Origin: Granulicoccus phenolivorans DSM 17626 = NBRC 107789 = JCM 15570
GTDB taxonomy: Bacteria > Actinomycetota > Actinomycetes > Propionibacteriales > Propionibacteriaceae
Direction of reading: 5' to 3'
Length of the DNA stretch: 57,068 nt
NCBI RefSeq assembly: GCF_000423085.1
Contig: NZ_AUHH01000028.1
Location: forward strand, 1-57,068
Every line of letters begins with the position of its first letter. Position 1 is the stretch's first letter. A program made the position numbers and the translations under genes. Positions 3,937-34,154 of the stretch are shown piece by piece. Under the pieces are notes generated by a model that worked only from the letters and a program-made list of their open reading frames with translations, did no database searches and was not told the origin of the DNA.

Positions 3937-5268
3937 GTGCGCAGGCTCCAGGAATTCGCCGTTCTGCCGGTGCGGACCGTACGGCTGTGGCTGTCCTACC
4001 TGCCCCAACTGGTGTCGATCTTCCTGATCGGCTGGATCATCCGTACGCTCGGCACCAACGCCGCTGTCACCATCGGGCAGGCCAACCGGGTCCTGGCCAC
4101 CCTGCTGTACGTGGTCGGTGTGGTGGCCCAGGTCCTCGCGATGATCGCGATGATCCGACTGCTCAAGCCCGGGCTACGAATGGACCGGCTCACGGCGGGG
4201 GAGCGGCGCCCCGGCGTACCCGCTGAGGCCCTGCGGACCGAGCCGCTCGTCGACGTCCTCCTGCTCTCGATCGGACCGTTCCTCGCGGTGTACGCGGTCT
4301 GGAAGCTGATCGACGCCTGGGTCAGCGACCTGTTCCTGTGGAATATCGCACTCAAACCCGACCTGCGCGCCCAGGATGCCTGGTCCATCTCCACCGACGC
4401 CGGTCAACTGCCGCTGTTCCTCGCGATCGGAGGCAGCGCCTTCATCCTGCGGATCGCCTACCAATTCCTCACCCGCGGCCGCCGCAACCCCTGGATCCGC
4501 CTGCCGCTGGTGGTGCTGGAGAGCCTGTGGGCGTTCTGCCTGTTCCTGATCACGCTGATCGGGGTCGACCAGTTGAAGACCTGGCTGCAGACCCGCGCGG
4601 TGACCCGCTGGCTCCAGGTCGGCTGGCAGGGCTTCCTGGACCGGTTGCCGGATCTCACGCTCCCGTTCGGGCTGACGCTTCCCGCCGCGGTCGCCGAAGC
4701 AACCGGCTGGATCTGGGAAACGCTGCTCCCGGCGGTCTGGAACAGTTTCGCCCTGCCGCTGGCGTGGCTGGCCCTGGCCGCGACCGTGCTCGGCTGGCGC
4801 CATTTCCGCGTACGCGACGTGGTGACCGGTCGGCTGTCCGAACGGATCGACCGCTTCACCCCGACCTCCACGGCGGGCCGCTCGTTGCTCCGGGTCGGCA
4901 GCGTCCTCGGCGCCGACCTGCGCGACAAGTACGTCCCGGTCCTGCACGCGCTGAGTCTGATCCGGCGCGCCGGGCCGATCCTGCTGGGTGCCTTCATCGT
5001 CTGGTACGCCGTGCTCACCACCGGGCAGAGCCTGCTGCACCAACTGACCGTGGCGTGGTTCGGCCCCGGGGAGACCGACCGCTTCGTCGCGTTCATGCAG
5101 TGGGCCCAGCTGCCGTCCGAACTCCTCTGCCAGACCCTGCTGCCGGCGCTGCTGGTCACGACCCTCGACCGGGGCCTGAATCACCTCGCCGCCGAACCCG
5201 CCGAGGCACCCAGCGACCCCGAACCCGCGCTGACCCGAGCCCCGGCCGCCCGACCCGCTAGGTCGTGA
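3937..5268 (+). CDS. Multi-pass membrane protein, function unknown (443 aa)
   Basis: Starts at GTG 3937. Hydrophobic segments are found around residues 20-40, 50-75, 105-125, 150-170, 185-205, 265-285, 345-365 and 385-405, so roughly eight transmembrane helices, with a Pro/Ala/Arg-rich tail. No catalytic or transporter signature was recognised. It follows the small Cys protein by 27 bases. Its 3' end overlaps the convergent gene at 5258 by 11 bases. It is probably an actinobacterial conserved integral membrane protein of unknown role. Confidence 0.8.
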   Translation: MRRLQEFAVLPVRTVRLWLSYLPQLVSIFLIGWIIRTLGTNAAVTIGQANRVLATLLYVVGVVAQVLAMIAMIRLLKPGLRMDRLTAGERRPGVPAEALRTEPLVDVLLLSIGPFLAVYAVWKLIDAWVSDLFLWNIALKPDLRAQDAWSISTDAGQLPLFLAIGGSAFILRIAYQFLTRGRRNPWIRLPLVVLESLWAFCLFLITLIGVDQLKTWLQTRAVTRWLQVGWQGFLDRLPDLTLPFGLTLPAAVAEATGWIWETLLPAVWNSFALPLAWLALAATVLGWRHFRVRDVVTGRLSERIDRFTPTSTAGRSLLRVGSVLGADLRDKYVPVLHALSLIRRAGPILLGAFIVWYAVLTTGQSLLHQLTVAWFGPGETDRFVAFMQWAQLPSELLCQTLLPALLVTTLDRGLNHLAAEPAEAPSDPEPALTRAPAARPARS

Positions 5269-5821
5269 ACCGCCAGGACCGGCTCACCGGACGCTGCCCC
5301 TCGGTCACCACGACCTCGACGCTCAGTCCGGCCTCATCGCTGGGCCGGATCTCGTAGACCTGGGTGAGCGCGTACTGCCGGCCGGCCTCGATCGGGCGCA
5401 CCACCGCGGTGCACCCGCCGACACTCCCGTCCGGGAGTTGCAGCCCCACCGCCGACGGGCCGATCTGCTCGTCGCGCCCATTGCGTACCGCCACGTCACA
5501 GGACAGGATGTCGGCATAGTTGTCCGCCGCGATGGATCGCGTCGGCTCGAGGGTCAGCTGCACCCGGGCCAGGCGCAGCCCGTCGATCCCGCGGACCGGC
5601 GCCCCACCGATGCCGGGCAACTCGTCGGACACCGCGACCCCGTCCACCCGCAGCCGGAATCCGTAGGCACTCAGGTCGGCCCATTCCCCGACCCGACTGG
5701 TTCCGATCACCCGTTCCTGCTGCCAGCGTCCACCGGCCACCGCACCCATCCCGACTGCGAGCAGGATCGCCACCAGCAGCAGTGCCCCGGCAACCAGCCA
5801 AGGGCGCCGCGACCGGCTCAC
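5258..5821 (-). CDS. Membrane-anchored protein with extracytoplasmic domain (187 aa)
   Basis: Starts at GTG 5821, whose GTGA overlaps the stop of the upstream LapA-like gene, so the two are translationally coupled. Residues ~8-30 form one transmembrane segment and the remaining ~150 residues look like an exported beta-sandwich (VAVRNGRDEQIGPSAVGLQL and YALTQVYEIR resemble DUF4352-type immunoglobulin-like folds). Two Cys (DILSCDV, GGCTAV) could form a disulfide. Proteins of similar design are encoded at 9617 and 10168. Function unknown; a cell-surface role is inferred from topology. Confidence 0.75.
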   Translation of the reverse strand: MSRSRRPWLVAGALLLVAILLAVGMGAVAGGRWQQERVIGTSRVGEWADLSAYGFRLRVDGVAVSDELPGIGGAPVRGIDGLRLARVQLTLEPTRSIAADNYADILSCDVAVRNGRDEQIGPSAVGLQLPDGSVGGCTAVVRPIEAGRQYALTQVYEIRPSDEAGLSVEVVVTEGQRPVSRSWRFTT

Positions 5822-6054
5822 TTGCGGCGGCGCAGCGCGAACCCGGTCAGCAGCCCGGCCAGGAACACCGCGGTCAGCATGATCCAGTGCGGGGCGGTAA
5901 AGGTCGCCGCGACGATGTGGAAGGTGGCCGGCTGCCGGTTCTGGGCGATGAACGCGATCGCCAGCACTGCGATGACGAGTCCGATCCAGAAGCGTGGGCT
6001 GGTCAGCAGGGCCTTGACGATACTGCGATTCTCCTCGGTCTTCGACCTGCTCAT
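5818..6054 (-). CDS. LapA/DUF1049-type small membrane protein (78 aa)
   Basis: The 78 residues contain two transmembrane helices (around 18-38 and 50-70) with the family-like pattern IAFIAQNRQPATFH between them and a basic GFALRRRK tail. LapA-domain proteins are involved in envelope or LPS assembly in Gram-negatives; in actinobacteria the role is unknown. It is the first gene of a two-gene minus-strand operon, overlapping the next gene by 4 bases, and divergent from the gene at 6213. Confidence 0.8.
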   Translation of the reverse strand: MSRSKTEENRSIVKALLTSPRFWIGLVIAVLAIAFIAQNRQPATFHIVAATFTAPHWIMLTAVFLAGLLTGFALRRRK

Positions 6055-6212
6055 GACTGCCTCTCCGAAGGTGCGCCGACCGCACGGCGCGCTCGGTCCA
6101 TTGTCCTCCCCCAGCCTCCTGCACTGAGGGTCACCTGCGCCAGCTGCCGCGCCCGGGGTGGCTAGGCTGAAGCCCTCAGTTGCAGGGGCAACTGGAAGAT
6201 CGGGGGATCACT

Positions 6213-6728
6213 GTGTCAGAACTCATCATCATCGGCTACGACGACCACGAGACCGCCGAAAAGGCGTACCACCGGGTCCAGCAACTCCAGCACGACTTCG
6301 TCGTCGAACTGTCCGGCCTGGCCGTGGTCCGCGTCGACGAGGACGGCAAGCGGCATGTCGACACTCCCGGCAGCCTGGTCGGGGTCTCGGCCGCCTCCGG
6401 TGCCACCTGGGGCCTGCTGTTCGGGCTGATCTTCCTCACCCCGGGGGTGGGCCTGCTCCTGGGCGGGCTCTGGGGCGCGCTGCTGGGCAGGATCGGCAAG
6501 TCCGGGATCGATCGAGCCTTCAGCGAACGGGTCACCGGCATGCTCGGCAACGGCAAAGCCGCGCTGGTGCTGATGGCCACCAAACTCACCGAGGACAAGT
6601 TCAATGCCGGGATCGCCGAGTTCGGTGGTCAGGTGCTGAAGACCTCGCTGTCCGAGGCCGACGAGAAGGAACTGCAGCAGATGCTCGGCGTCCACGACAA
6701 CGCCGCGACTGCCACCGAACCGAGCTGA
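6213..6728 (+). CDS. DUF1269-family membrane protein
   Basis: Start chosen at GTG 6213 (VSELIIIGYDDHETAEKAY) because AGATCGGGGGA precedes it. The 171 residues have an N-terminal alpha/beta part, a Gly-rich membrane hairpin (residues ~65-100, with LLFGLIFLTPGVGLLLGGLW) and a C-terminal soluble part ending in ATATEPS. This matches DUF1269 (YhdG/DUF1269-type) membrane proteins, whose role is not established. The ATPase-like gene starts five bases after its stop, so the two are probably an operon and may act together. Confidence 0.8.
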   Translation: MSELIIIGYDDHETAEKAYHRVQQLQHDFVVELSGLAVVRVDEDGKRHVDTPGSLVGVSAASGATWGLLFGLIFLTPGVGLLLGGLWGALLGRIGKSGIDRAFSERVTGMLGNGKAALVLMATKLTEDKFNAGIAEFGGQVLKTSLSEADEKELQQMLGVHDNAATATEPS

Positions 6729-6733
6729 CCCAG

Positions 6734-9232
6734 GTGCCCGGCCTGACCGCGGCCGAGGCCGCGGCCAGGTTGGCCGCCGGCGACGGCAATACCACGGAGC
6801 TGAAGCAGCAGGTCGAGCGGCCCCGGCTGCGGAGCATCTTCACGATCTTCCAGCTGAACCTGCTCGGCCTGGTCGGCATCCAGCTCCTGCTGGGCGCTCC
6901 GATCGGTGCCCTGATCACGCTCGTCCTGGCGTTGGTGAGCATCGGGATCCGCGTCGGCAAGGAGGAGTACGCCCAGCGCCGCGTGGATCTCCTCGAGCAA
7001 CGCATGCGTCCACGGGCCACCGTCATCCGCGACAACCGAGAGAGCAATATCGACGCCGACCGCATCGTGCTCGGCGACCTGGTCGTGATCGGACCCGGCG
7101 ACCAGCTCCAGGTGGACGGCCCGGTGCTGGCCGGCGGCCCCCTGGTCATCGACAGTTCCGCGGTGACCGGGGAGCGCGCACCGCACCGGGCCCAGCCCGG
7201 CGATCTGCTGCTGGCCGGGAGCACCTGCCTGGCCGGACGCGGCACCATGCGCGCCGAGCGGGTGGGGGCGCACCGATCGACCCACGCCCGCGGTGCCCGT
7301 CGCCCCGCGCCGACCCGGCAACCGACCCCGCTGGAGCACCTGGTGGCCCGGATCCTGTTCGTGCTGCTGCTGGTGGTCGTGGGCTACGTCGCGATCCTGC
7401 TGGCCAAGTTCTTCCGGCTGGACGTGGGTACCCCGGGGGACGCACTGGTCGATGCCGCCCCGGTGGTGTTCAGCCTGCTGCCGACCGGGCTGTACCTGAT
7501 GATCATTCACACCTACACGACCGGGACCGCGGAGCTGGCCCGGTCCGGCGCCCTGGTCCGCAGCGCCCGTTCGGTGGAGTCCCTGGCCGAGTCGAACGTC
7601 GTGTGCTTCACCGATGTCGGGATGCTGGCCGGGACCGCCGCGGAGATCGTGCCGGTTCCCGGGCACGACAATGATCCGGACTGGCCCTCGAGTTCGCAGC
7701 AGCGGCGGCTGGTCGGTGACCTGGCCCGGAACCTGCCCGAGCCGACGCCGCTGGCCACCATGATCGCCGACGCGTTCGACGGTGTCTCCCGGCCGGTACG
7801 CTTCTCCGCCGGTGCGCTGCTCCGGGACGGCTGGACGGCGCTGGCGTACGCGGGGGAGAGCGATCCCGACCTGTACGTGCTGGCCCGGCGCAGCGTCCTG
7901 GAACCCCTGCTCTCCGATGCCGAGGCGGCCCGGATCGCCGATGATTCCCCGGATCCGGCCGGTGTTGCGGCGGCCGACCGGTTGGTGCTGGCAGTGGCGC
8001 GCGCCGCAGCCGGTGACCCCGACTGGTCGGCGCGGCTCACCGGGCCGGACGGTACGCCGACGCTCCCGACCGGCCTGCTCCCGATCTGTGCGGTGGAGAT
8101 CCGGCGCCGGATCCATCCCGACGCGCTCGAGGTGATCGCCGACTGGGTCGCCACCGGCGTCCGGATCAAGGTCTTCGCCGCCGGGGAACCGGACCAGGTG
8201 CTGGCGACATTGCGGGAAGCAGGACTGTCCCCGGCTGCCGAGGCCGACCTGCTTGCCGAGGGCGGCCTGTCCCGCGCGGCGTACGAGGCGCTGCCGCCGG
8301 AGCAGCGGGCCGAGGCGGTCGCCCGGCACCGATTGTTCGGCGGGTTCCGCCCCGACCAGGTCGCCGAGGTGGTCCGGACCCTGCGGAAGGCCGGCCGCCA
8401 CGTCACCGTGGTCGGCGACGGGCTGACCGATCTGCCCGCCCTGCAGCAGGCCGATCTCGCGGTGACCCAGCCGGCCAGTACGCAGGCCGCGCTCGGGGCC
8501 GCCGACATCGTGCTGCTCAGCGATTCCCCGGCCGCGCTGCTCACGGTGCAACGCAAGGGGCAGGCGATGGTGCGCGGGCTGCTCGACATCCTGAAACTGA
8601 ATCTGACCCTGGTGGTCTGCTCCGCGCTGCTCATTCTGGCGGTCCGGCTGCTCGATATCGGGTTCCCGTACCGGTCCGGCCAGGGGACGGTGATCTCCCT
8701 GCTGGCGGTCACCATCCCGTCGATCCTGCTGCCGCTGTGGACACCGCCCGGGGCGGTCGACCGGGACCGGCATCTGCGGGATCTGACTCGTTTCGTGCTC
8801 CCCACGGGGGTGAGTCTGGCCCTGGTCGCGACGGTGGTGTATCTGCTCGGCTATCGGTGGTCCGGCGACCGGTCAGTGGCCCAGTCGGCGGTGATGTACA
8901 CGCTGCTGTACTGCGGGCTGCTGCTCTCGGTGCTGATTCATCCCCCGCACCGGGCCGGTGTTCGGGCGCAGTGGCGTCCGGTGATCATGACGGTCGCCCT
9001 GGCGGTGCTCGGCACCCTGCTGCCGCTGTCGGTCACCGCGCGGTTCTTCTGGTCGGTCCAATTCCTGCCCGGCCCGGCGGAGTATCTGCTCGTCGCGGTG
9101 GCGGTGGTGGGGTGGCTGGGCCTCGTCCTGGGCCTGGGGCGGTTGCTCCGGCTTCCGGGCCTGTCCGGGGCTGCGGTCAGGCGGTGGCGACGAAGGCAGC
9201 CAGCGCGTGGCCGGACCCGTCCAGCAGGGTGA
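6734..9232 (+). CDS. P-type ATPase-like protein with degenerate catalytic motifs (832 aa, CtpE-related)
   Basis: Start GTG 6734 (VPGLTAAEAAARLAAGDGN, as in CtpE-type pumps). The fold is complete: paired N-terminal helices, actuator domain with TGER (145-148), a central hydrophobic pair with LLPTGL where CtpE-type pumps have PEGL, a nucleotide/phosphorylation region and six C-terminal helices. The site that should read CxDKTGTLT reads CFTDVGMLA: without gaps the phosphorylated Asp is Thr293 and the Lys is Asp294. The TGD motif is AAGEP and GDGxND is GDGLTD (561-566). ATP-driven pumping is therefore unlikely. It follows the DUF1269 gene by 5 bases, and its 3' end overlaps the convergent gene at 9177 by 56 bases. 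It may be a pseudo-pump acting as sensor or scaffold (inference). Confidence 0.85.
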   Translation: MPGLTAAEAAARLAAGDGNTTELKQQVERPRLRSIFTIFQLNLLGLVGIQLLLGAPIGALITLVLALVSIGIRVGKEEYAQRRVDLLEQRMRPRATVIRDNRESNIDADRIVLGDLVVIGPGDQLQVDGPVLAGGPLVIDSSAVTGERAPHRAQPGDLLLAGSTCLAGRGTMRAERVGAHRSTHARGARRPAPTRQPTPLEHLVARILFVLLLVVVGYVAILLAKFFRLDVGTPGDALVDAAPVVFSLLPTGLYLMIIHTYTTGTAELARSGALVRSARSVESLAESNVVCFTDVGMLAGTAAEIVPVPGHDNDPDWPSSSQQRRLVGDLARNLPEPTPLATMIADAFDGVSRPVRFSAGALLRDGWTALAYAGESDPDLYVLARRSVLEPLLSDAEAARIADDSPDPAGVAAADRLVLAVARAAAGDPDWSARLTGPDGTPTLPTGLLPICAVEIRRRIHPDALEVIADWVATGVRIKVFAAGEPDQVLATLREAGLSPAAEADLLAEGGLSRAAYEALPPEQRAEAVARHRLFGGFRPDQVAEVVRTLRKAGRHVTVVGDGLTDLPALQQADLAVTQPASTQAALGAADIVLLSDSPAALLTVQRKGQAMVRGLLDILKLNLTLVVCSALLILAVRLLDIGFPYRSGQGTVISLLAVTIPSILLPLWTPPGAVDRDRHLRDLTRFVLPTGVSLALVATVVYLLGYRWSGDRSVAQSAVMYTLLYCGLLLSVLIHPPHRAGVRAQWRPVIMTVALAVLGTLLPLSVTARFFWSVQFLPGPAEYLLVAVAVVGWLGLVLGLGRLLRLPGLSGAAVRRWRRRQPARGRTRPAG

Positions 9233-9596
9233 GCCGGTCCCCGTCGAGGCGGTACGCGCGGGCGTCCCGCACGGCGGCCAGATAGGCGTACTCCTGGTCC
9301 ATCACCGGGCCGTCACAGGCCATCAGGGTGGTCGCCAGCGCGTCCGACACCGAGATCGTGCCCACGCCCAGGGCCACCGGGCCGAAGTACCGGTTGCAGC
9401 CGGCCGACCCGGAGATCTGCTCGGTGGTGAACGCCGCGGTGATGCTGGTTCCGGCCACCGGGGGAGCCTGGTGCAACTCGGTCAACTCCCAGGAGGTGCC
9501 GGGCAACTGCGGCCCCGCGGCGGGCTGGGCGGTGTCGGCCCACCCGGTCAGCAGCAGCGCGGCCAGCACCGCCGAATACATCGGTCCGGACCGCAT
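9177..9596 (-). CDS. META-domain exported protein with lost lipobox Cys
   Basis: 139 residues from ATG 9596. A hydrophobic leader ends in LLLTGWAD: the position where a lipoprotein would have the acylated Cys (LTGC) is Trp19. The mature part, with TSWELTELHQAPP, ISGSAGCNRYFGP and LATTLMAC, is a META/HslJ domain, found in exported proteins of unclear function that often accompany stress or heat-shock responses. It follows the gene at 9617 by 20 bases, ending a three-gene operon. Without the Cys it may be secreted or stay anchored by its leader. Confidence 0.85.
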   Translation of the reverse strand: MRSGPMYSAVLAALLLTGWADTAQPAAGPQLPGTSWELTELHQAPPVAGTSITAAFTTEQISGSAGCNRYFGPVALGVGTISVSDALATTLMACDGPVMDQEYAYLAAVRDARAYRLDGDRLTLLDGSGHALAAFVATA

Positions 9597-9616: not shown

Positions 9617-10171
9617 TCAGCGCCCCGCTTCGTACGTCGGTTCCTCGATCGTAACCGGGCCGGCCGCCGGGGGCACCGGGTCGGGCAGCACGAAGGTCGG
9701 GGCATCGCGGACCGGCACGATGCCGCCCGCCGCGTTCGAGCGTACGCTGAACCGCGCCCCGCGCAGTTTCGCGGCGGGTACCTCGAACACCGCCTGCGCC
9801 ACGGCGGCCTGGGCGACCGGCACCTGCACCGATCCGGCCGGCAGCCCGATCCGGGTCACCGGGTCGTAGCGCTTCCCCTCGGCGGTGGTGATCCGGGGCA
9901 GCCCGGTCAGCAGGCGCTGGTGCGGCTGCACCCAATAGGTGACCACCAGGAACGGCTCCCAGGACTGCTGGGTGGCCCCGCTCGGAGTGCCCACCTCGGT
10001 CGCGGCGACCACTTGGAGCAGCCGGGCATCCAGCCGTGGGGTCCGTGCGATGCCGTCGGCCCCGGGCCCGGCCGGCCGGTCGATTTCGGTACCCTCCGGG
10101 CGCAGTGTCGCGATCCACCCGGCCAGGACCAGGCACAGCGCCAGGACGACGAACCCACCCAGCCGCTTCAT
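9617..10171 (-). CDS. Membrane-anchored extracytoplasmic protein (184 aa)
   Basis: A single N-terminal hydrophobic segment (residues ~4-22) is followed by a beta-rich exported domain (SWEPFLVVTYWVQPHQRLL, KLRGARFSVRS). The start ATGA overlaps the stop of the upstream gene (10168), so translation is coupled. Architecture and position suggest it is related to the proteins at 10168 and 5258, probably immunoglobulin-like (DUF4352-type) domains. No catalytic residues were recognised; function unknown. Confidence 0.7.
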   Translation of the reverse strand: MKRLGGFVVLALCLVLAGWIATLRPEGTEIDRPAGPGADGIARTPRLDARLLQVVAATEVGTPSGATQQSWEPFLVVTYWVQPHQRLLTGLPRITTAEGKRYDPVTRIGLPAGSVQVPVAQAAVAQAVFEVPAAKLRGARFSVRSNAAGGIVPVRDAPTFVLPDPVPPAAGPVTIEEPTYEAGR

Positions 10172-10785
10172 CGGCGCACCTGCGCGGTCAGCGGGACCCG
10201 GGCCTTCGGGGGGAGTTGCGCTTTCAACTCACCGAGGCGCGCGAAGTCGTCGTCCGGTTTGCGCTGATCGAGGACCAGCACGTCGATCGCGTACGGGCCC
10301 CGGCCGTCGGGGACATAGTCGTTCGCGGCGAACTTGAACACGCACCCGGCGTTGGTCGCGACGTCCGGGTCGAACTTCGCTGCCTCCAGCGGGGCCCGGA
10401 CGTGCCCGCAGGTGCTGATCCCGAGGGCGCGTCCGCCCGGCATCCGGACGATCATCACCTGCGGAGTCAGCGACGGGTGCGATGCGGTCAGTTTGCTGGT
10501 GATCGTGGCCAGCACCACCAGGTCCACCGGGGTCCCGGCCTGGGAGCGGACGTACGCCGAGCCGATGCGGATGTCCCAGCCCTTGGTCCGGATGAGTTGC
10601 CCCGGCGCCACGATCGGTCCCGGGTACGCCGAGGCCCGTCGGAACCCTCCCGCGGCGGTGATCACGGCGAGCAGCACCAGCGCCACGCCGGCCACGATCA
10701 CCCAGCCGAGCAACCGGCCGCGTACCCCGAGCGCTGGCAGCGGAACCGGTCCGGCCGAGCGTCGCGGCGGGTCGTCGGGCTGCAT
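10168..10785 (-). CDS. Membrane-anchored extracytoplasmic protein (205 aa)
   Basis: A short Pro-rich cytoplasmic tail precedes one transmembrane helix (residues ~28-48), followed by an exported domain with two Cys (GISTCGHV, NAGCVFKF) able to form a disulfide. The pattern WDIRIGSAYVRSQAG..VDLVVLATITSK is that of a DUF4352-like beta-sandwich. It is the first gene of a three-gene minus-strand operon (10168, 9617, 9177) with a 4-base overlap to the next. Function unknown. Confidence 0.7.
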   Translation of the reverse strand: MQPDDPPRRSAGPVPLPALGVRGRLLGWVIVAGVALVLLAVITAAGGFRRASAYPGPIVAPGQLIRTKGWDIRIGSAYVRSQAGTPVDLVVLATITSKLTASHPSLTPQVMIVRMPGGRALGISTCGHVRAPLEAAKFDPDVATNAGCVFKFAANDYVPDGRGPYAIDVLVLDQRKPDDDFARLGELKAQLPPKARVPLTAQVRR

Positions 10786-11251
10786 GGGCGTCAGCCTAAG
10801 CAGCGATCGGTTCAGCCGTGGCTGTTGCTCGGATTCGGCGACGGTTGTGCCGGCCCCGGGTTCCCGCGACCACGTGGTGGTGGCGATCGGGCTTCCCGCG
10901 ACAGCGACGGCGGCGCCCCGACTGCGACAGCAACACGGGCGCCGGGGCTTCCCGCGACAGCAACAGCGGCTCAGCGCATGGCCCGATCCTGGGCATCAGC
11001 GGTACCAGCCGGGTGCAGCCCGATTCCATGGCCCGGGGCCGTGGACCCGATGATCCAGGCCCCGGACGCCGAGGCGAGGGTTGCAGCGGGCCGAACAGCG
11101 GGCTGCTGGGAGTTCGTGCCCCAGGCGGAGGCTCACCCGGCGTCGCTCCGGGCACCCAGCGTCACAGCGGGCAACCCAGCTTCTGGGCGCCGTGAAGCTA
11201 GGTGGCCTTGGGTGACGCTGCGTTGGCCCGGTGGCCGCTGCCCTGCGAGGT

Positions 11252-11341
11252 CACTTCCTCCCCGCTGCTGGTGCAGCAGGTGCGGGAGCCCTACGGTCCG
11301 CGGGATGGACTTGACTGTCGCGGGAACGCCGGTGCCGGAAC
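11252..11341. repeat. Imperfect ~90-bp duplicated unit, copy A
   Basis: Shares CACTTCC.CCCGCTGCTG, GTGCAGCAG.TGCGGGA, TACGG.C.GCGGGATGG and TCGCGGGAACGCCGGTGCC with copy B, in the same order and spacing. CTGCTG-GTG-CAGCAG inside it can form a hairpin. Confidence 0.8.
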
Positions 11342-11483
11342 TCTCCGTCGCGAGAACGACGGTGCCCGGACCTGAGATCGCGGCCAGCGATACTTCCGGT
11401 TTCCCCGCGACACAAGGTGTACTTCCGCGACAGCAACAGCTGCGCCCCGGCTTCCCGCGATGACTACCGCGGCTCAGCGATGC

Positions 11484-11574
11484 CACTTCCTTCCCGCTGC
11501 TGGTGCAGCAGATGCGGGAAGCGTTACGGCCTGCGGGATGGGCGTACGTATCGCGGGAACGCCGGTGCCCGAAC
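11484..11574. repeat. Imperfect ~90-bp duplicated unit, copy B
   Basis: Direct-orientation duplicate of copy A, 232 bases downstream, differing mainly by substitutions between the conserved blocks. It contains the same CTGCTG-GTG-CAGCAG hairpin and ends with a TCGCGGGAA motif. Confidence 0.8.
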
Positions 11575-11623
11575 CATCCATCGCGGGAAGGCCCCCGCGT
11601 ACCCCGCGAGCGACCGAACCCGC

Positions 11624-29871: not shown

Positions 29872-31935
29872 GTGTCCGAAGACAACGTGGGTCGGCCGGT
29901 CGTCACGACCGATCCGACTACGGTCGAGATGCGCCGACGATCCGGAAAACGACCCGTGTCGGGTCTGCTGTTCGTCGGGCTGGCCGCCACTGTCGGGGTG
30001 CTGCTGGTGTGGGTGATCGCCACCTACCAGGGCAGCGGGCCGCGACAGCTCCCGGGCCGGCAGAACGTCGACGTGCTGACCTACCAGGCCGGCGCGTTGC
30101 TGGAAGCCCTGGCCTGGTTGAGCGCCCTGGCCGCCTTCGGCCTGCTGTTCGCCGCCGCGGTGTTCTCCCCGATCAACCGGTCCCACCAGGAGCTGTCCCC
30201 GCAGACCCGGGCCGGGCTGCTGCCGTACGCCGGCCGGGCCGCGCAGTTGTGGTTCACCTTCGCGGTGCTGGTGGCCCCCTTCAATGCCGCGATCGTGAAC
30301 GGGGTGAGCGTCGGCGCGGTGATTCCGCAGTTGGGGCAATTCCTGTGGGCGACCCCGTCAGCGATGGCCTGGCTGGTCACCGGCGTACTCGCGCTCGGCG
30401 CTTCGCTGTTGATCCGGTTCGCGACCCGACTGGGCAATCTGGGGGCCGCGCTGTACCTGATGCTGCTGGCCACGCTGCCGCCGGTGGTGACCGGCAATGT
30501 GACCGTGGGAGCCAACCACGACTGGGCCTCCGACGCGGGTGCCCTGTCCACCGTCGCGTTCGCGATCCTGGGGGGCGCGGCCCTGGCGCAGGTGGTCCGG
30601 GGCGGCACCGGCACTGGCGCGGACGCAGCCGCCGAGACGGGTGATCGGCTGCGTCGCTACCAGTGGATCTCCGGCATCTTCCTGATCCTGGCGATCGTCT
30701 TCCGCACGGTGGTCGCCTGGTGGGAACTGGCCGGCACCTCGCCGTTCGCCACCGCCTACGGCTGGCTGCTGCTGGGCATGGGCGCGCTGGCGCTGTTGCT
30801 GGTGGTCAGCCTGGTGCTGCGGCGCTTCCTGCTGCACGCCGGCCGGATCTCCGCGGCGTACGCGACCAGTGTGTTCGACGCCGCCGCGCTGGCCCTGATC
30901 ACCGCGCTGAGTGCGGTCACCGCGTGGCTCGCCCCGCCGCGGTTCTGGGTGCCGCAGGACAGCATCCAGATCAACTACCTCGGCTACTCCATCGACACCC
31001 CGCCCTCCGTCGAGTCGGTAGCCGGACTGGGTCGGGTCAATCTGCTGTTCACCGTGATCGCCGTGGTGGCCCTGCTGGTCTACTGGGTCGCGTGGTGGCA
31101 GGCCCGCCGGATCCAGAAGCCGTACCCGATCAGCCGGCTGGTGTGCTGGACGATCGGCTGGGGGCTGGTGCTCTACCTCAACATCAGCGGGTTCTGGGAG
31201 TATTCGAGCGCCTCGTTCACCTTCCACATGGTCGAGCACATGTCGATCAACATGCTGGCACCGGTGCTGATCGTGGTCGGCGGTCCGATCACCCTGTTCC
31301 TGAACGTGCTGCCGGTCACCCGGGAAACCTCGATGCCGCGGGTGCGGGACGCCATTGTCGCAATGACGAACTGGAAGGCGCTGAAGGTCATTCTGCATCC
31401 GCTGGTGATCGGCTTCCTGTTCGTCGCCTCGCTGTACGTGATCTACTTCTCCGACCTGTTCGGGGCGATGATGCGCTACCACTGGGCGCACCAGTTCATG
31501 ATGCTGCACTACCTGATCGTCGGGCTGCTGTTCTACAGCCAGATCATCGGGACCGACAAGGCCCCGGTCGAGGTCCCCCACGTCGGGCGGCTCGGGTTCA
31601 TGATGGCGGTGATGCCGTTCCACGCGTTCTTCGCGGTGATCATCATGGGCGCCACCACCCTGGTGGGGGAACAGTTCTACCGTTCGCTGTCGGTGCCGTG
31701 GAACCAGGATCTGCACAAGGCCCAGGAACTGGGCGGTCAGTTGACCTGGGCGATCGGGGAGATTCCGATGCTGCTGGTGATCCTGATCCTGATGGCGCAA
31801 TGGCTGGGCTCGGACCAGCGCGACGCCCGCCGCAAGGACCGCGCGATGGATGAAGGCCTGGACGACTCCTTCGACGCCTACAACGAAATGCTCGCCGAGC
31901 TCGCCCGGCGAGAGGAAGACAAGCTGCAGAAATGA
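29872..31935 (+). CDS. CopD-CtaG fusion: copper import/cytochrome oxidase assembly membrane protein
   Basis: 687 residues; start GTG 29872 chosen for GGGAGGA just upstream. The N-terminal half has about eight helices with the CopD-like NVTVGANHDWASDAG region; the C-terminal half is a caa3-type CtaG domain (FTFHMVEHMSINMLAP, WAHQFMMLHYL, VPWNQDLHKAQELGG). His and Met residues in these helices could carry copper to cytochrome oxidase. The stop overlaps the copA start (ATGA). The two probably balance copper delivery and export. Confidence 0.92.
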   Translation: MSEDNVGRPVVTTDPTTVEMRRRSGKRPVSGLLFVGLAATVGVLLVWVIATYQGSGPRQLPGRQNVDVLTYQAGALLEALAWLSALAAFGLLFAAAVFSPINRSHQELSPQTRAGLLPYAGRAAQLWFTFAVLVAPFNAAIVNGVSVGAVIPQLGQFLWATPSAMAWLVTGVLALGASLLIRFATRLGNLGAALYLMLLATLPPVVTGNVTVGANHDWASDAGALSTVAFAILGGAALAQVVRGGTGTGADAAAETGDRLRRYQWISGIFLILAIVFRTVVAWWELAGTSPFATAYGWLLLGMGALALLLVVSLVLRRFLLHAGRISAAYATSVFDAAALALITALSAVTAWLAPPRFWVPQDSIQINYLGYSIDTPPSVESVAGLGRVNLLFTVIAVVALLVYWVAWWQARRIQKPYPISRLVCWTIGWGLVLYLNISGFWEYSSASFTFHMVEHMSINMLAPVLIVVGGPITLFLNVLPVTRETSMPRVRDAIVAMTNWKALKVILHPLVIGFLFVASLYVIYFSDLFGAMMRYHWAHQFMMLHYLIVGLLFYSQIIGTDKAPVEVPHVGRLGFMMAVMPFHAFFAVIIMGATTLVGEQFYRSLSVPWNQDLHKAQELGGQLTWAIGEIPMLLVILILMAQWLGSDQRDARRKDRAMDEGLDDSFDAYNEMLAELARREEDKLQK

Positions 31936-34154
31936 CCACCACGCAGGCACCCGCGCAGATCGAGACCTTCGAACTCGATGTCGACGGCATGACGTGTGCC
32001 GCCTGCGCCGCCCGGGTCGAGAAGAAGCTGAACAAACTCGACGGGGTCCGGGCCACGGTCAACTACGCCACCGAGCGGGCCGTGGTCACCGGTCCGATCA
32101 CCCCCGGCGAAGCCATCGGGGCGGTCCGCAAGGCCGGCTACGACGCGGCCGAGCCTGCCACCGACGAGTCCGAGAGCGGCCGGGTCGGCAAGGACCGGGT
32201 GGGGATGCTCAAGCGCCGCCTGGTGATCGCCGCGGTGCTCACCGTGCCGCTGGCCGACCTGGCGATCGTGCTTGCGCTCGCGCCGGCCCTGCGCTTCCCG
32301 TACTGGGAGTGGGCGCTGCTGATCGGGGCGGCGCCGGTGGTGTTCTGGTGCGCGTGGCCCTTCCACAAGGCGGCCCTGCGCAACCTGCGGCACGGCACCA
32401 CCTCGATGGACACCCTGGTGTCGCTGGGCGTGCTCGCGGCGTACCTGTGGTCGCTGATCTCGGTGGTGCTGGGGTCGTCCAACTCGCCGGGCTATTGGCT
32501 CATCTACGGGGACACCCCACCGGGCGCCGACGCGATCTACGTGGAGGTCGCGGCGGCGGTCACCACCTTCCTGCTGGCCGGGCGCTACTTCGAGGCCAAA
32601 TCGCGGCAGTCCGCCCAGGCGGTGCTCGGGGCACTCAATGCGCTGGCCCCGACCGAGGTCCGCAAGCTGGTCGACGGGGTCGAACGGCTGGTTCCGATCG
32701 CCGAGTTGCGGCCCGGGGACGAGTTCGTCGTGCGGGCCGGGGAGCGGATCGCCGCCGACGGAACCGTCGCCGCCGGAGCCTCCTCGGTGGATACCTCGGC
32801 GATGACCGGCGAACCCGTTCCGGCCGAGGTGACCGAGGGCACCACGGTGCTCGGCGGCACCGTCAACATCACCGGCCGGCTGGTCGTGCGCACCGATCGG
32901 GTCGGCGCGCACACCCAACTCGCGCAGATGGCGGCCCTGGCCGACCAGGCGCAGGCCCGCAAGGCCCGGGTGCAGCGGTTGGTCGATCGGGTCGTCGGCT
33001 ATTTCGTCCCGGTCGTGCTGGTGATCTCCGCCGGTACGCTCGCGGTCTGGCTGGCCACCGGGCATGCCCCGCGGGATTCCTTCAGCGCCGCGATCTCGGT
33101 GCTCATCATCGCCTGCCCGTGCGCGTTGGGGCTGGCCACGCCGACCGCGCTGATGGTCGGCGTGGGCCGTGGCGCCCAGCTGGGCCTGCTGATCAAGGGT
33201 CAGGACGCACTGGAGGCCAGCGGCCGGATCGACACCGTCGTGCTGGACAAGACCGGCACGCTGACCACCGGGGAGATGGTGCTCACCGACGTCGCGGTCA
33301 CCGGCCACCCCGAAAAGATCGTGCGGCGGCTGGTCGGCATGGTCGAGAGCCACACCGAGCACCCGATCGCGCGGGCCCTGGCCGCCGACATCACCCCCGA
33401 GCAGGCCGCCGCGGTGACCGACTTCGAGGTCCTGCCCGGGCTGGGCGCGGCCGGCACCATCGAGGGCCGCCGCATCGTGATCGGGAACACCACCCTGATC
33501 GACGCCGCGATCCCCGAGGCGCTGGCCCCCACCCTGGAGCGGTCCCGCCAGGAGGGGAGCACCCCGGTCGTGGTGCGCATCGACGACGAGGTCGTCGCGG
33601 TCTTCGTGGTCGCCGACCAGATCAAGGACTCCGCCGCCGACAGTGTGGCGCGCCTGCGCAAGCTGGGGCTGCACACCGTGTTGCTCACCGGCGATCATGC
33701 CGCGGCCGCCCGGACCGTGGGGGACCGGCTGGGGGTCGACCAGGTCATCGCCGAGGTGTTGCCCAGCGAGAAGGCCGCCCGCATCGAACTACTGCAGGCC
33801 GAGGGCCGCAGTGTGGCGATGGTCGGTGACGGGATCAACGATGCCGCCGCGCTGGCGACCGCCAATCTGGGGATGGCGCTGGTCTCGGGCACCGAGATCG
33901 CGATGCGCTCGGCCGACATCATCCTGGTCCGGCGCAACCTGGGAGTCATCCCGGACGCCATCGAGCTGTCCCGGGCGACTCTGCGTACGATCCGGGGCAA
34001 CCTGGTGTGGGCCTTCGGCTACAACATCGCGGCGATCCCGTTGGCCGCCCTGGGCCTGCTCAATCCGCTGATCGCGGGCCTGGCGATGTCGCTGTCGTCG
34101 GTGTTCGTGGTGACCAACAGCGTCCGGCTGCGCAGCTTCAAGCCGCGGCACTGA
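31932..34154 (+). CDS. copA: Copper-exporting P1B-type ATPase
   Basis: 740 residues. One HMA domain (GMTCAACAARVEKK) precedes eight helices. All motifs are intact: AMTGEP, the transport site CPCALGLATPTALMVG, phosphorylated Asp in DKTGTLTTGE, SHTEHPIA, LLTGDH and VGDGINDAAAL. CPC and the HMA domain indicate Cu(I). It is translationally coupled to the CopD-CtaG gene by a 4-base overlap. It contrasts with the degenerate ATPase-like gene at 6734. Confidence 0.96.
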   Translation: MTTTQAPAQIETFELDVDGMTCAACAARVEKKLNKLDGVRATVNYATERAVVTGPITPGEAIGAVRKAGYDAAEPATDESESGRVGKDRVGMLKRRLVIAAVLTVPLADLAIVLALAPALRFPYWEWALLIGAAPVVFWCAWPFHKAALRNLRHGTTSMDTLVSLGVLAAYLWSLISVVLGSSNSPGYWLIYGDTPPGADAIYVEVAAAVTTFLLAGRYFEAKSRQSAQAVLGALNALAPTEVRKLVDGVERLVPIAELRPGDEFVVRAGERIAADGTVAAGASSVDTSAMTGEPVPAEVTEGTTVLGGTVNITGRLVVRTDRVGAHTQLAQMAALADQAQARKARVQRLVDRVVGYFVPVVLVISAGTLAVWLATGHAPRDSFSAAISVLIIACPCALGLATPTALMVGVGRGAQLGLLIKGQDALEASGRIDTVVLDKTGTLTTGEMVLTDVAVTGHPEKIVRRLVGMVESHTEHPIARALAADITPEQAAAVTDFEVLPGLGAAGTIEGRRIVIGNTTLIDAAIPEALAPTLERSRQEGSTPVVVRIDDEVVAVFVVADQIKDSAADSVARLRKLGLHTVLLTGDHAAAARTVGDRLGVDQVIAEVLPSEKAARIELLQAEGRSVAMVGDGINDAAALATANLGMALVSGTEIAMRSADIILVRRNLGVIPDAIELSRATLRTIRGNLVWAFGYNIAAIPLAALGLLNPLIAGLAMSLSSVFVVTNSVRLRSFKPRH

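Follow-up and report, generated by a model that had tools for sequence, protein, structure and literature searches.

A P-type pump body that has lost its catalytic residues, shared by Propionibacteriaceae and Chloroflexota and often encoded near DUF1269-type genes

P-type ATPases are defined by a phosphorylated aspartate. Here we describe an ATPase-like protein lacking that residue, encoded beside a DUF1269 membrane protein on contig NZ_AUHH01000028.1 of the actinomycete Granulicoccus phenolivorans DSM 17626 (family Propionibacteriaceae; assembly GCF_000423085.1); the whole stretch analysed, 57,068 nucleotides, is referred to below as the window. The nearest characterised type, by its pattern in membrane helix M4 and by tree neighbourhood, is the P6 ATPases (the CtpE family, family 23 of the bacterial P-type ATPases), which share the domain order of the window protein and whose PEGL-bearing proteins, such as L002 and L031, neighbour its clade; the CtpE-type identity of these PEGL rows is inferred from the motif, the CtpE sequence itself being absent from the tree (L, G and g numbers denote loci, genomes and genera, and G000 is the genome of G. 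phenolivorans itself). CtpE is described, in the parts of two publications available to us, as a calcium uptake pump required for cell-surface integrity (PMC5615198; PMC10654040), and the first of these gives it all activity motifs and VPEGL in M4 (PMC5615198), whereas the window protein has lost the motifs and reads PTGL.

The two genes and the altered site are placed as follows.

6213..6728, plus strand: gene for the DUF1269 membrane protein (171 amino acids, aa), with a GTG start at 6213 and a TGA ending at 6728
6734..9232, plus strand: gene for the pseudo-P-type ATPase (832 aa), with a GTG start at 6734 and a TGA stop at 9230-9232
7610..7621, plus strand: the altered DKTG site, codons of T293-D294-V295-G296, its position computed from residue numbers

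The GTG start at 6734, giving the N terminus 'GLT', matches the N termini of orthologues in the alignment, and five bases separate it from the DUF1269 gene on the same strand. The phosphorylation site reads C291-F-T-D-V-G-M-L-A in place of C-x-D-K-T-G-T-L-T, AAG at 482-484 replaces [TS]GD, GDGLTD at 561-566 replaces GDGxND, and Val 543 stands for the motif III Lys; these last three changes remove marks of a P-type ATPase enzyme, and another such mark, the phosphorylatable Asp in DKTGT, is absent from all eight loci of the family described below. The N domain has Leu 417 at its Arg position and Gly 366 at its Lys/Arg position. Positions 361, 366 and 417 we take to be equivalent to the SERCA ATP contacts F487, K492 and R560, and SERCA numbers were given to the other catalytic positions on the same assumption. 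The TGE of the A domain is present (145-147). Because the phosphorylated Asp, its Lys, motif III and the N-domain positions have been lost together, an ATP-driven cycle is, judging from sequence, very unlikely.

The body of the pump appears to persist. By fold and homology the protein belongs to the P-type ATPase superfamily, with A, P, N and membrane domains in the usual order. It matches Pfam E1-E2_ATPase at 102.8 bits (cut-off 28.1, E 2e-29) and TIGR01494 at 103.8 bits (cut-off 62.3); its match to the Pfam Hydrolase model of the P domain, at 24.1 bits, is under the cut-off (26.4), in keeping with damage to the catalytic core. An AlphaFold2 model built from 17 sequences (mean predicted local distance difference test score, pLDDT, 77.5; predicted template-modelling score 0.70) has ten readable long membrane-type helices, and since its best matches in the Protein Data Bank (PDB) are P-type ATPases, headed by a calcium pump of Listeria (E 3.3e-34), the pump body is predicted to be kept. 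A sequence-only reading of the window had claimed that the protein retains the whole fold and carries Thr-Asp where DKTG needs Asp-Lys, AAGEP instead of TGD and GDGLTD instead of GDGxND, in a gene five bases after that for DUF1269; the motifs were found at the residues given above, coordinates 6728 and 6734 agree with the spacing, and the domain matches and predicted model are consistent with the fold. The upstream protein is a DUF1269 member (PF06897, 93.2 bits, cut-off 26.9). Its sequence had no match among solved structures, and its model (mean pLDDT 64.6) had no PDB match under E 0.001; a weak likeness of that model to CutA and to the MgtC C-terminal domain (E 0.23) was not used.

The same losses recur in relatives. 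Among 147 genomes of the same family, 11, counting that of G. phenolivorans, had a match of E 1e-60 or better, and seven of these carry eight pseudo copies: the window, L009 (G112), L010 and L019 (both G081), L011 (G102), L012 (G038), L013 (G105) and L014 (G085), with L021-L023 being the same loci as L009, L013 and L014. The six orthologues aligned are 38-54% identical to the window protein, and long open frames of normal length are present at all eight loci. Every one reads C[FV]T[DE][VL][GD], with Thr at the nucleophile and Asp or Glu at the Lys position, and SGD, the motif III Lys and the N-domain Arg and Lys/Arg positions are gone in 8/8. The second Asp of GDGxxD is retained in all eight and the first in seven; three rows have a Glu at the TGE position, one of them (L014) in a gapped, poorly aligned stretch. 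P250 and G252 of the PTGL in M4 are invariant, and the Glu of PEGL that typifies P6 pumps is found in 10/10 PEGL-type relatives and in none of the eight family rows. No further orthologue was found in an order-level search of 293 genomes, and a class-level search (296 genomes, E 1e-55) added one protein, bearing DKTG and PEGL.

A wide alignment-based scan, covering 84,980 species by one genome apiece, working through short patterns and liable to miss members, gave 23 relatives, where a single-protein query had given none. They comprise three family loci, two from metagenome-assembled genomes of Chloroflexota (L025 and L027) and 18 others, of which 17 have DKTG and one (L040) does not cover the site. 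L025 has GTTG in the DKTG place and L027 ends before it; in the two, SAK and SAD stand for SGD, and GSGVDE and GSGVDD for GDGxND. When L025 was used as query against 400 Chloroflexota genomes, 24 matched at E 1e-70, its own included, and in the 23 others the locus read has DKTG in every case, as does a second copy in one of them (L081 in G589). Outside the clade the Asp-Lys pair is present in 39 of 41 aligned relatives (29/29 of the PxGL type and 10/10 of the PEGL type), the remaining two, from genus g18, having the Asp only. The 55-row alignment leaves out L021-L023, L007 and L008 (overlapping pieces) and L036, L037 and L040-L043 (partial or distant); L036, L037 and L041-L043 are among the excluded proteins that show DKTG.

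The two g18 proteins, L016 and L018, are of the PxGL type. In place of DKTG they read DTAG and D-TG; TGE is replaced by TDE and TGA. Three other proteins of the genus (L015, L017 and L020) have DKTG, so there is a second, partial loss of the catalytic motif.

A tree of 53 rows and 761 columns, with motif columns removed and L003 and L004 excluded, unites the eight rows of the family with the two from Chloroflexota in one clade with support of 100/100. This clade groups with all PxGL rows at 100/98, beside the PEGL group and with the g18 proteins apart; the PxGL group placed as its sister has weak support (61/42). A constraint that places L025 and L027 among the active PxGL rows costs 71 log units (approximately unbiased test, p 0.00015), the group tested having been selected after the tree was seen. 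Loss of the catalytic residues is thus, on the sequences compared, common to a supported clade spanning two phyla. The simplest reading of the tree would be that the Asp-Lys pair was lost once, long ago, and then replaced in different ways; transfer between the two phyla, or two losses in sister lines, are possible alternative histories.

The ratio of nonsynonymous to synonymous substitution (dN/dS, by Nei-Gojobori) is 0.12 for L012/L013, 0.24 for L010/L011, 0.31 and 0.34 for pairs with L019, and 0.23 for the Chloroflexota pair L025/L027. For comparison, active g18 pairs give 0.21 and 0.26, and the partly degenerate L016/L018 0.25; pairs with the window protein, at 0.51-0.64 with dS of 0.75-0.89, are overly diverged for a sound estimate and were not used. 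The sequence-only reading had proposed asking whether the altered motif is conserved or scattered among orthologues, and using dN/dS, as ways of telling a functional pseudo-enzyme from decay. The alteration is conserved in 8/8 family loci, no clade member covering the site has DKTG, and the usable ratios are well under 1, so that simple decay is not what they describe; the gene appears, where measurable, to be under purifying selection, and catalytic loss common to orthologues under such selection would make this a pseudoenzyme family.

Constraint also differs between domains, although the pairs compared are non-independent and the domain limits were set by eye. In the main pairwise sets (which exclude L013, L027, L057 and the g18 rows), the ratio of P-domain to membrane-domain conservation at 35-45% identity is 1.55 in active proteins (46 pairs) and 0.99 in the clade (13 pairs); at 45-60% it is 1.43 (232 pairs) and 1.07 (8 pairs), and at 60-80% 1.06 (19 pairs) and 0.95 (4 pairs). 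The clade gives 1.08 at 20-35% (3 pairs), a bin with zero active pairs. By parsimony, with L025, L027, L035 and L057 excluded, the ratio is 1.03 in the family clade; four active sets, the first of which contains two of the others, give 0.69, 0.88, 0.60 and 0.83 (p 3e-8, 0.057, 4e-8 and 0.03). At 22 positions every clade member that is covered has the same residue, one that few active relatives share; an example is Thr 660 in M6, where 27/27 covered PxGL actives have Gly.

DUF1269-type genes recur beside the pseudo-pump. One lies within 9 kb at seven of the eight family loci, about 5 and 8 kb away and on the opposite strand at two of them, and direct adjacency is seen in the window only. At L021, L044, L045 and L046 the order is a LapA-like gene (minus strand), DUF1269, glutaminase and pseudo-pump, followed in three of the four by a META-domain gene on the minus strand, with none seen in L045. 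In Chloroflexota L025, three DUF1269-type genes lie upstream of the pump, 4.5-6.7 kb away and on its strand; a SHOCT domain scores above the Pfam cut-off in one of them and below it in another, and no DUF1269 gene is present on the 6.5-kb contig of L027. Of the 23 Chloroflexota genomes bearing DKTG, one (G605) has DUF1269 near its pump, where a 738-aa frame no more than 6 kb away matches twice, at 29.4 and 28.6 bits, barely above the cut-off; the other 22 have none within 10 kb on the pump's contig (contig ends uncorrected), ten of the 23 have no match anywhere, and neither do the four g18 genomes. The pairing put forward from the window alone therefore stands as co-occurrence (7/8 family loci and L025, versus 1/23 active Chloroflexota) and does not extend to direct adjacency elsewhere. 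Between the DUF1269 genes and the pseudo-pump of L025, a 649-aa frame (4171-6117) matches the Cys-loop receptor ligand-binding domain (PF02931, 47.1 bits).

Two further genes flank the pair in the window.

5818..6054, minus strand: small LapA-domain-like protein (78 aa), divergent upstream neighbour; LapA_dom at 21.9 bits, under the Pfam cut-off of 28
9177..9596, minus strand: META-domain-like gene, convergent, its 3' end overlapping the ATPase-like gene; start codon picked by eye

The LapA-like neighbour is matched in five other loci, and in a sixth via L044; the META-like neighbour is about 37-44% identical to its counterparts in relatives, and that of L044, the only copy scanned, gave the META domain at 171.1 bits. 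Glutaminase was identified by Pfam scan in L044 and L022 and assigned at the other loci by 70-82% identity. In L022 it has the opposite orientation and precedes genes for AbgT and an M17 aminopeptidase, and an aspartate-alanine exchanger gene lies on the pump's opposite side; downstream in L044 are genes for an HtrA-like protease, AbgT and M17, with the same in L046 by similarity, and a DUF6325 gene is near the pump in L046. Four adjacent open frames in the window (3937-5268, 5258-5821, 9617-10171 and 10168-10785) had no Pfam match at E 0.01. Farther on, several short repeats built around CTTCCCGCGACA are scattered over 10853-11611, which also holds two blocks (53 and 73 nt) duplicated at a spacing of 232-233; on another contig of the same genome (L055 11883-12122, G000:C39), GCGACAGGAAAGTTGGGCATGGGCC is part of a tandem array whose period is 30 nt. 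The window also encodes a second P-type ATPase (740 aa, 31932-34154) in which the motifs are present (TGEP, CPC, DKTG, TGD and GDGIND).

On balance we favour the reading that this is an old, selected pseudo-P-type ATPase, near the P6/CtpE-like pumps, which would work without ATP hydrolysis through its membrane domain and probably with DUF1269. Since the loss is common to its relatives, which selection appears to maintain, the dead pump probably performs some other job. The residues for nucleotide binding and phosphorylation chemistry would have been lost while the membrane body, with the M4 proline and glycine, persists, and the protein could then act, independently of ATP, as a sensor, scaffold or regulator: a non-catalytic partner for the DUF1269 protein in the membrane, in a pair that would sense or relay acid or cell-envelope stress. 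Stress is suggested by the neighbours found in relatives (glutaminase, AbgT transporter, M17 aminopeptidase, HtrA-type protease, META-domain and LapA-like genes) and because a review, in the part available, ties glutaminase to acid tolerance, naming the glutaminase gene ybaS as one of those used in engineering P. acidipropionici for tolerance of propionic acid (PMC6942593). The calcium that CtpE supplies for cell-surface integrity may be a further lead (PMC5615198). That a P-type body and a glycine-rich DUF1269 protein form an ATP-independent sensor or gate, a two-part stress module of Chloroflexota and Propionibacteriaceae, we offer as a tentative proposal.

Several observations weigh against this reading. 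The distribution is patchy (2/13 genomes of genus g11 and 4/8 of genus g16), long branches are present and long-branch effects in the tree are possible, and the count of 22 shared positions has no control, since any clade shares derived positions; for 14 of the 22, L025 is the sole source from Chloroflexota. Parsimony shows a weaker shift of constraint than pairwise comparison does (the set at 0.88 has p 0.057), a clade-like 0.96 comes from one active g18 pair in the 60-80% identity bin, and three active g18 proteins go in the opposite direction by parsimony (1.43). Neighbour sets differ between loci, and genome G085 has no DUF1269 match. Glutaminase is absent beside the window pump: a search of the window with the L044 protein gave no match, and the sole match in the genome (G000:C39) lies about 2 kb from a contig end with no cluster genes beside it by eye, so the link to acid comes from the relatives. 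At L047 (5076-5730) the glutaminase is a 5'-truncated piece in two frames beside an intact pseudo-pump gene.

Simple decay, in which a former pump gene is being lost, would accommodate the patchy distribution, the variation of TGE and SGD within the clade and the partly lost DKTG of the two g18 proteins, a sign that loss is recurrent in the wider group. We rejected it on the orthologue motifs, intact frames and dN/dS, and regard it as barely credible: frames are of normal length at 8/8 loci with shared replacement residues, dN/dS is 0.12-0.34 in usable pairs, and the clade spans two phyla. Retention of chemistry in altered form, with phosphorylation or hydrolysis through another residue such as the conserved Thr or the acid replacing Lys, draws on the invariance of that Thr, followed by Asp/Glu, in 8/8 family loci and on the retained Asp residues of GDGxxD (second 8/8, first 7/8); it is nevertheless very improbable, as the motif III Lys, SGD and the N-domain positions are gone throughout the family and the Chloroflexota copy L025 has Gly-Thr at the site.

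Two other functions can be imagined for a dead pump. As an ATP-independent facilitator, a channel or leak through which an ion or lipid passes passively, it would make use of the helix-breaking P-x-G of M4 (P250 and G252 invariant), the fold predicted to be retained and the move of conservation toward the membrane domain in pairwise comparison. P-type pumps are, as is generally held, alternating-access machines with no open pore, and the M4 Glu of PEGL pumps is absent from this protein and the active PxGL relatives alike; we consider such a role unlikely. Alternatively it might regulate an active paralogue, pairing with a working P-type ATPase of the same cell such as the PEGL-type protein of G000:C22 (L002), which bears DKTG and is 30% identical. 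Pseudoenzymes often regulate active kin, as a matter of general knowledge, but P-type pumps are mostly monomeric and the two genes are on separate contigs, which makes this role quite doubtful.

If the favoured reading – a selected pump body working without ATP – is true, this would be, to our knowledge, the first known lineage of prokaryotic pump proteins that abandoned ATP. A natural, selected clade without the phosphorylated Asp lets one ask what a pump body uncoupled from ATP does, and the dead clade and its working relatives, about 30-40% identical, provide matched sets for such a test. It may also give a functional lead for DUF1269, for which we know of no function.

No bacterial pseudo-P-type ATPase was listed in searches of the open-access literature, subscription journals and preprints lying outside it. 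A 2023 review describes prokaryotic P-type diversity as still undescribed, and a clade of such pseudo-pumps is unmentioned in the parts consulted (PMC10654040). Similar in length and layout are the PxGL-type pumps of Chloroflexota and genus g18, grouped with the clade at 100/98 apart from PEGL proteins and having P-N/I/Y/S/A/Q-GL in M4 in nearly all cases; they retain D, K, T and S-G-D in 29/29 and the motif III Lys in 28/28 covered, whereas the pseudo clade does not. A eukaryotic analogue, which is disputed, may be human TMEM94 (ERMA), whose fold is P-type ATPase-like. According to the portion available of one report, its ATPase activity was undetected and its TGES motif is absent (PMC12134183); another group, in a report likewise available in part, calls it a Mg2+ ATPase of the endoplasmic reticulum (PMC13322241). 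Unlike the pseudo-pumps described here, TMEM94 is eukaryotic, retains an Asp (D417) that is at issue and binds AMPPCP at micromolar affinity, as given in the same portion of the first report (PMC12134183).

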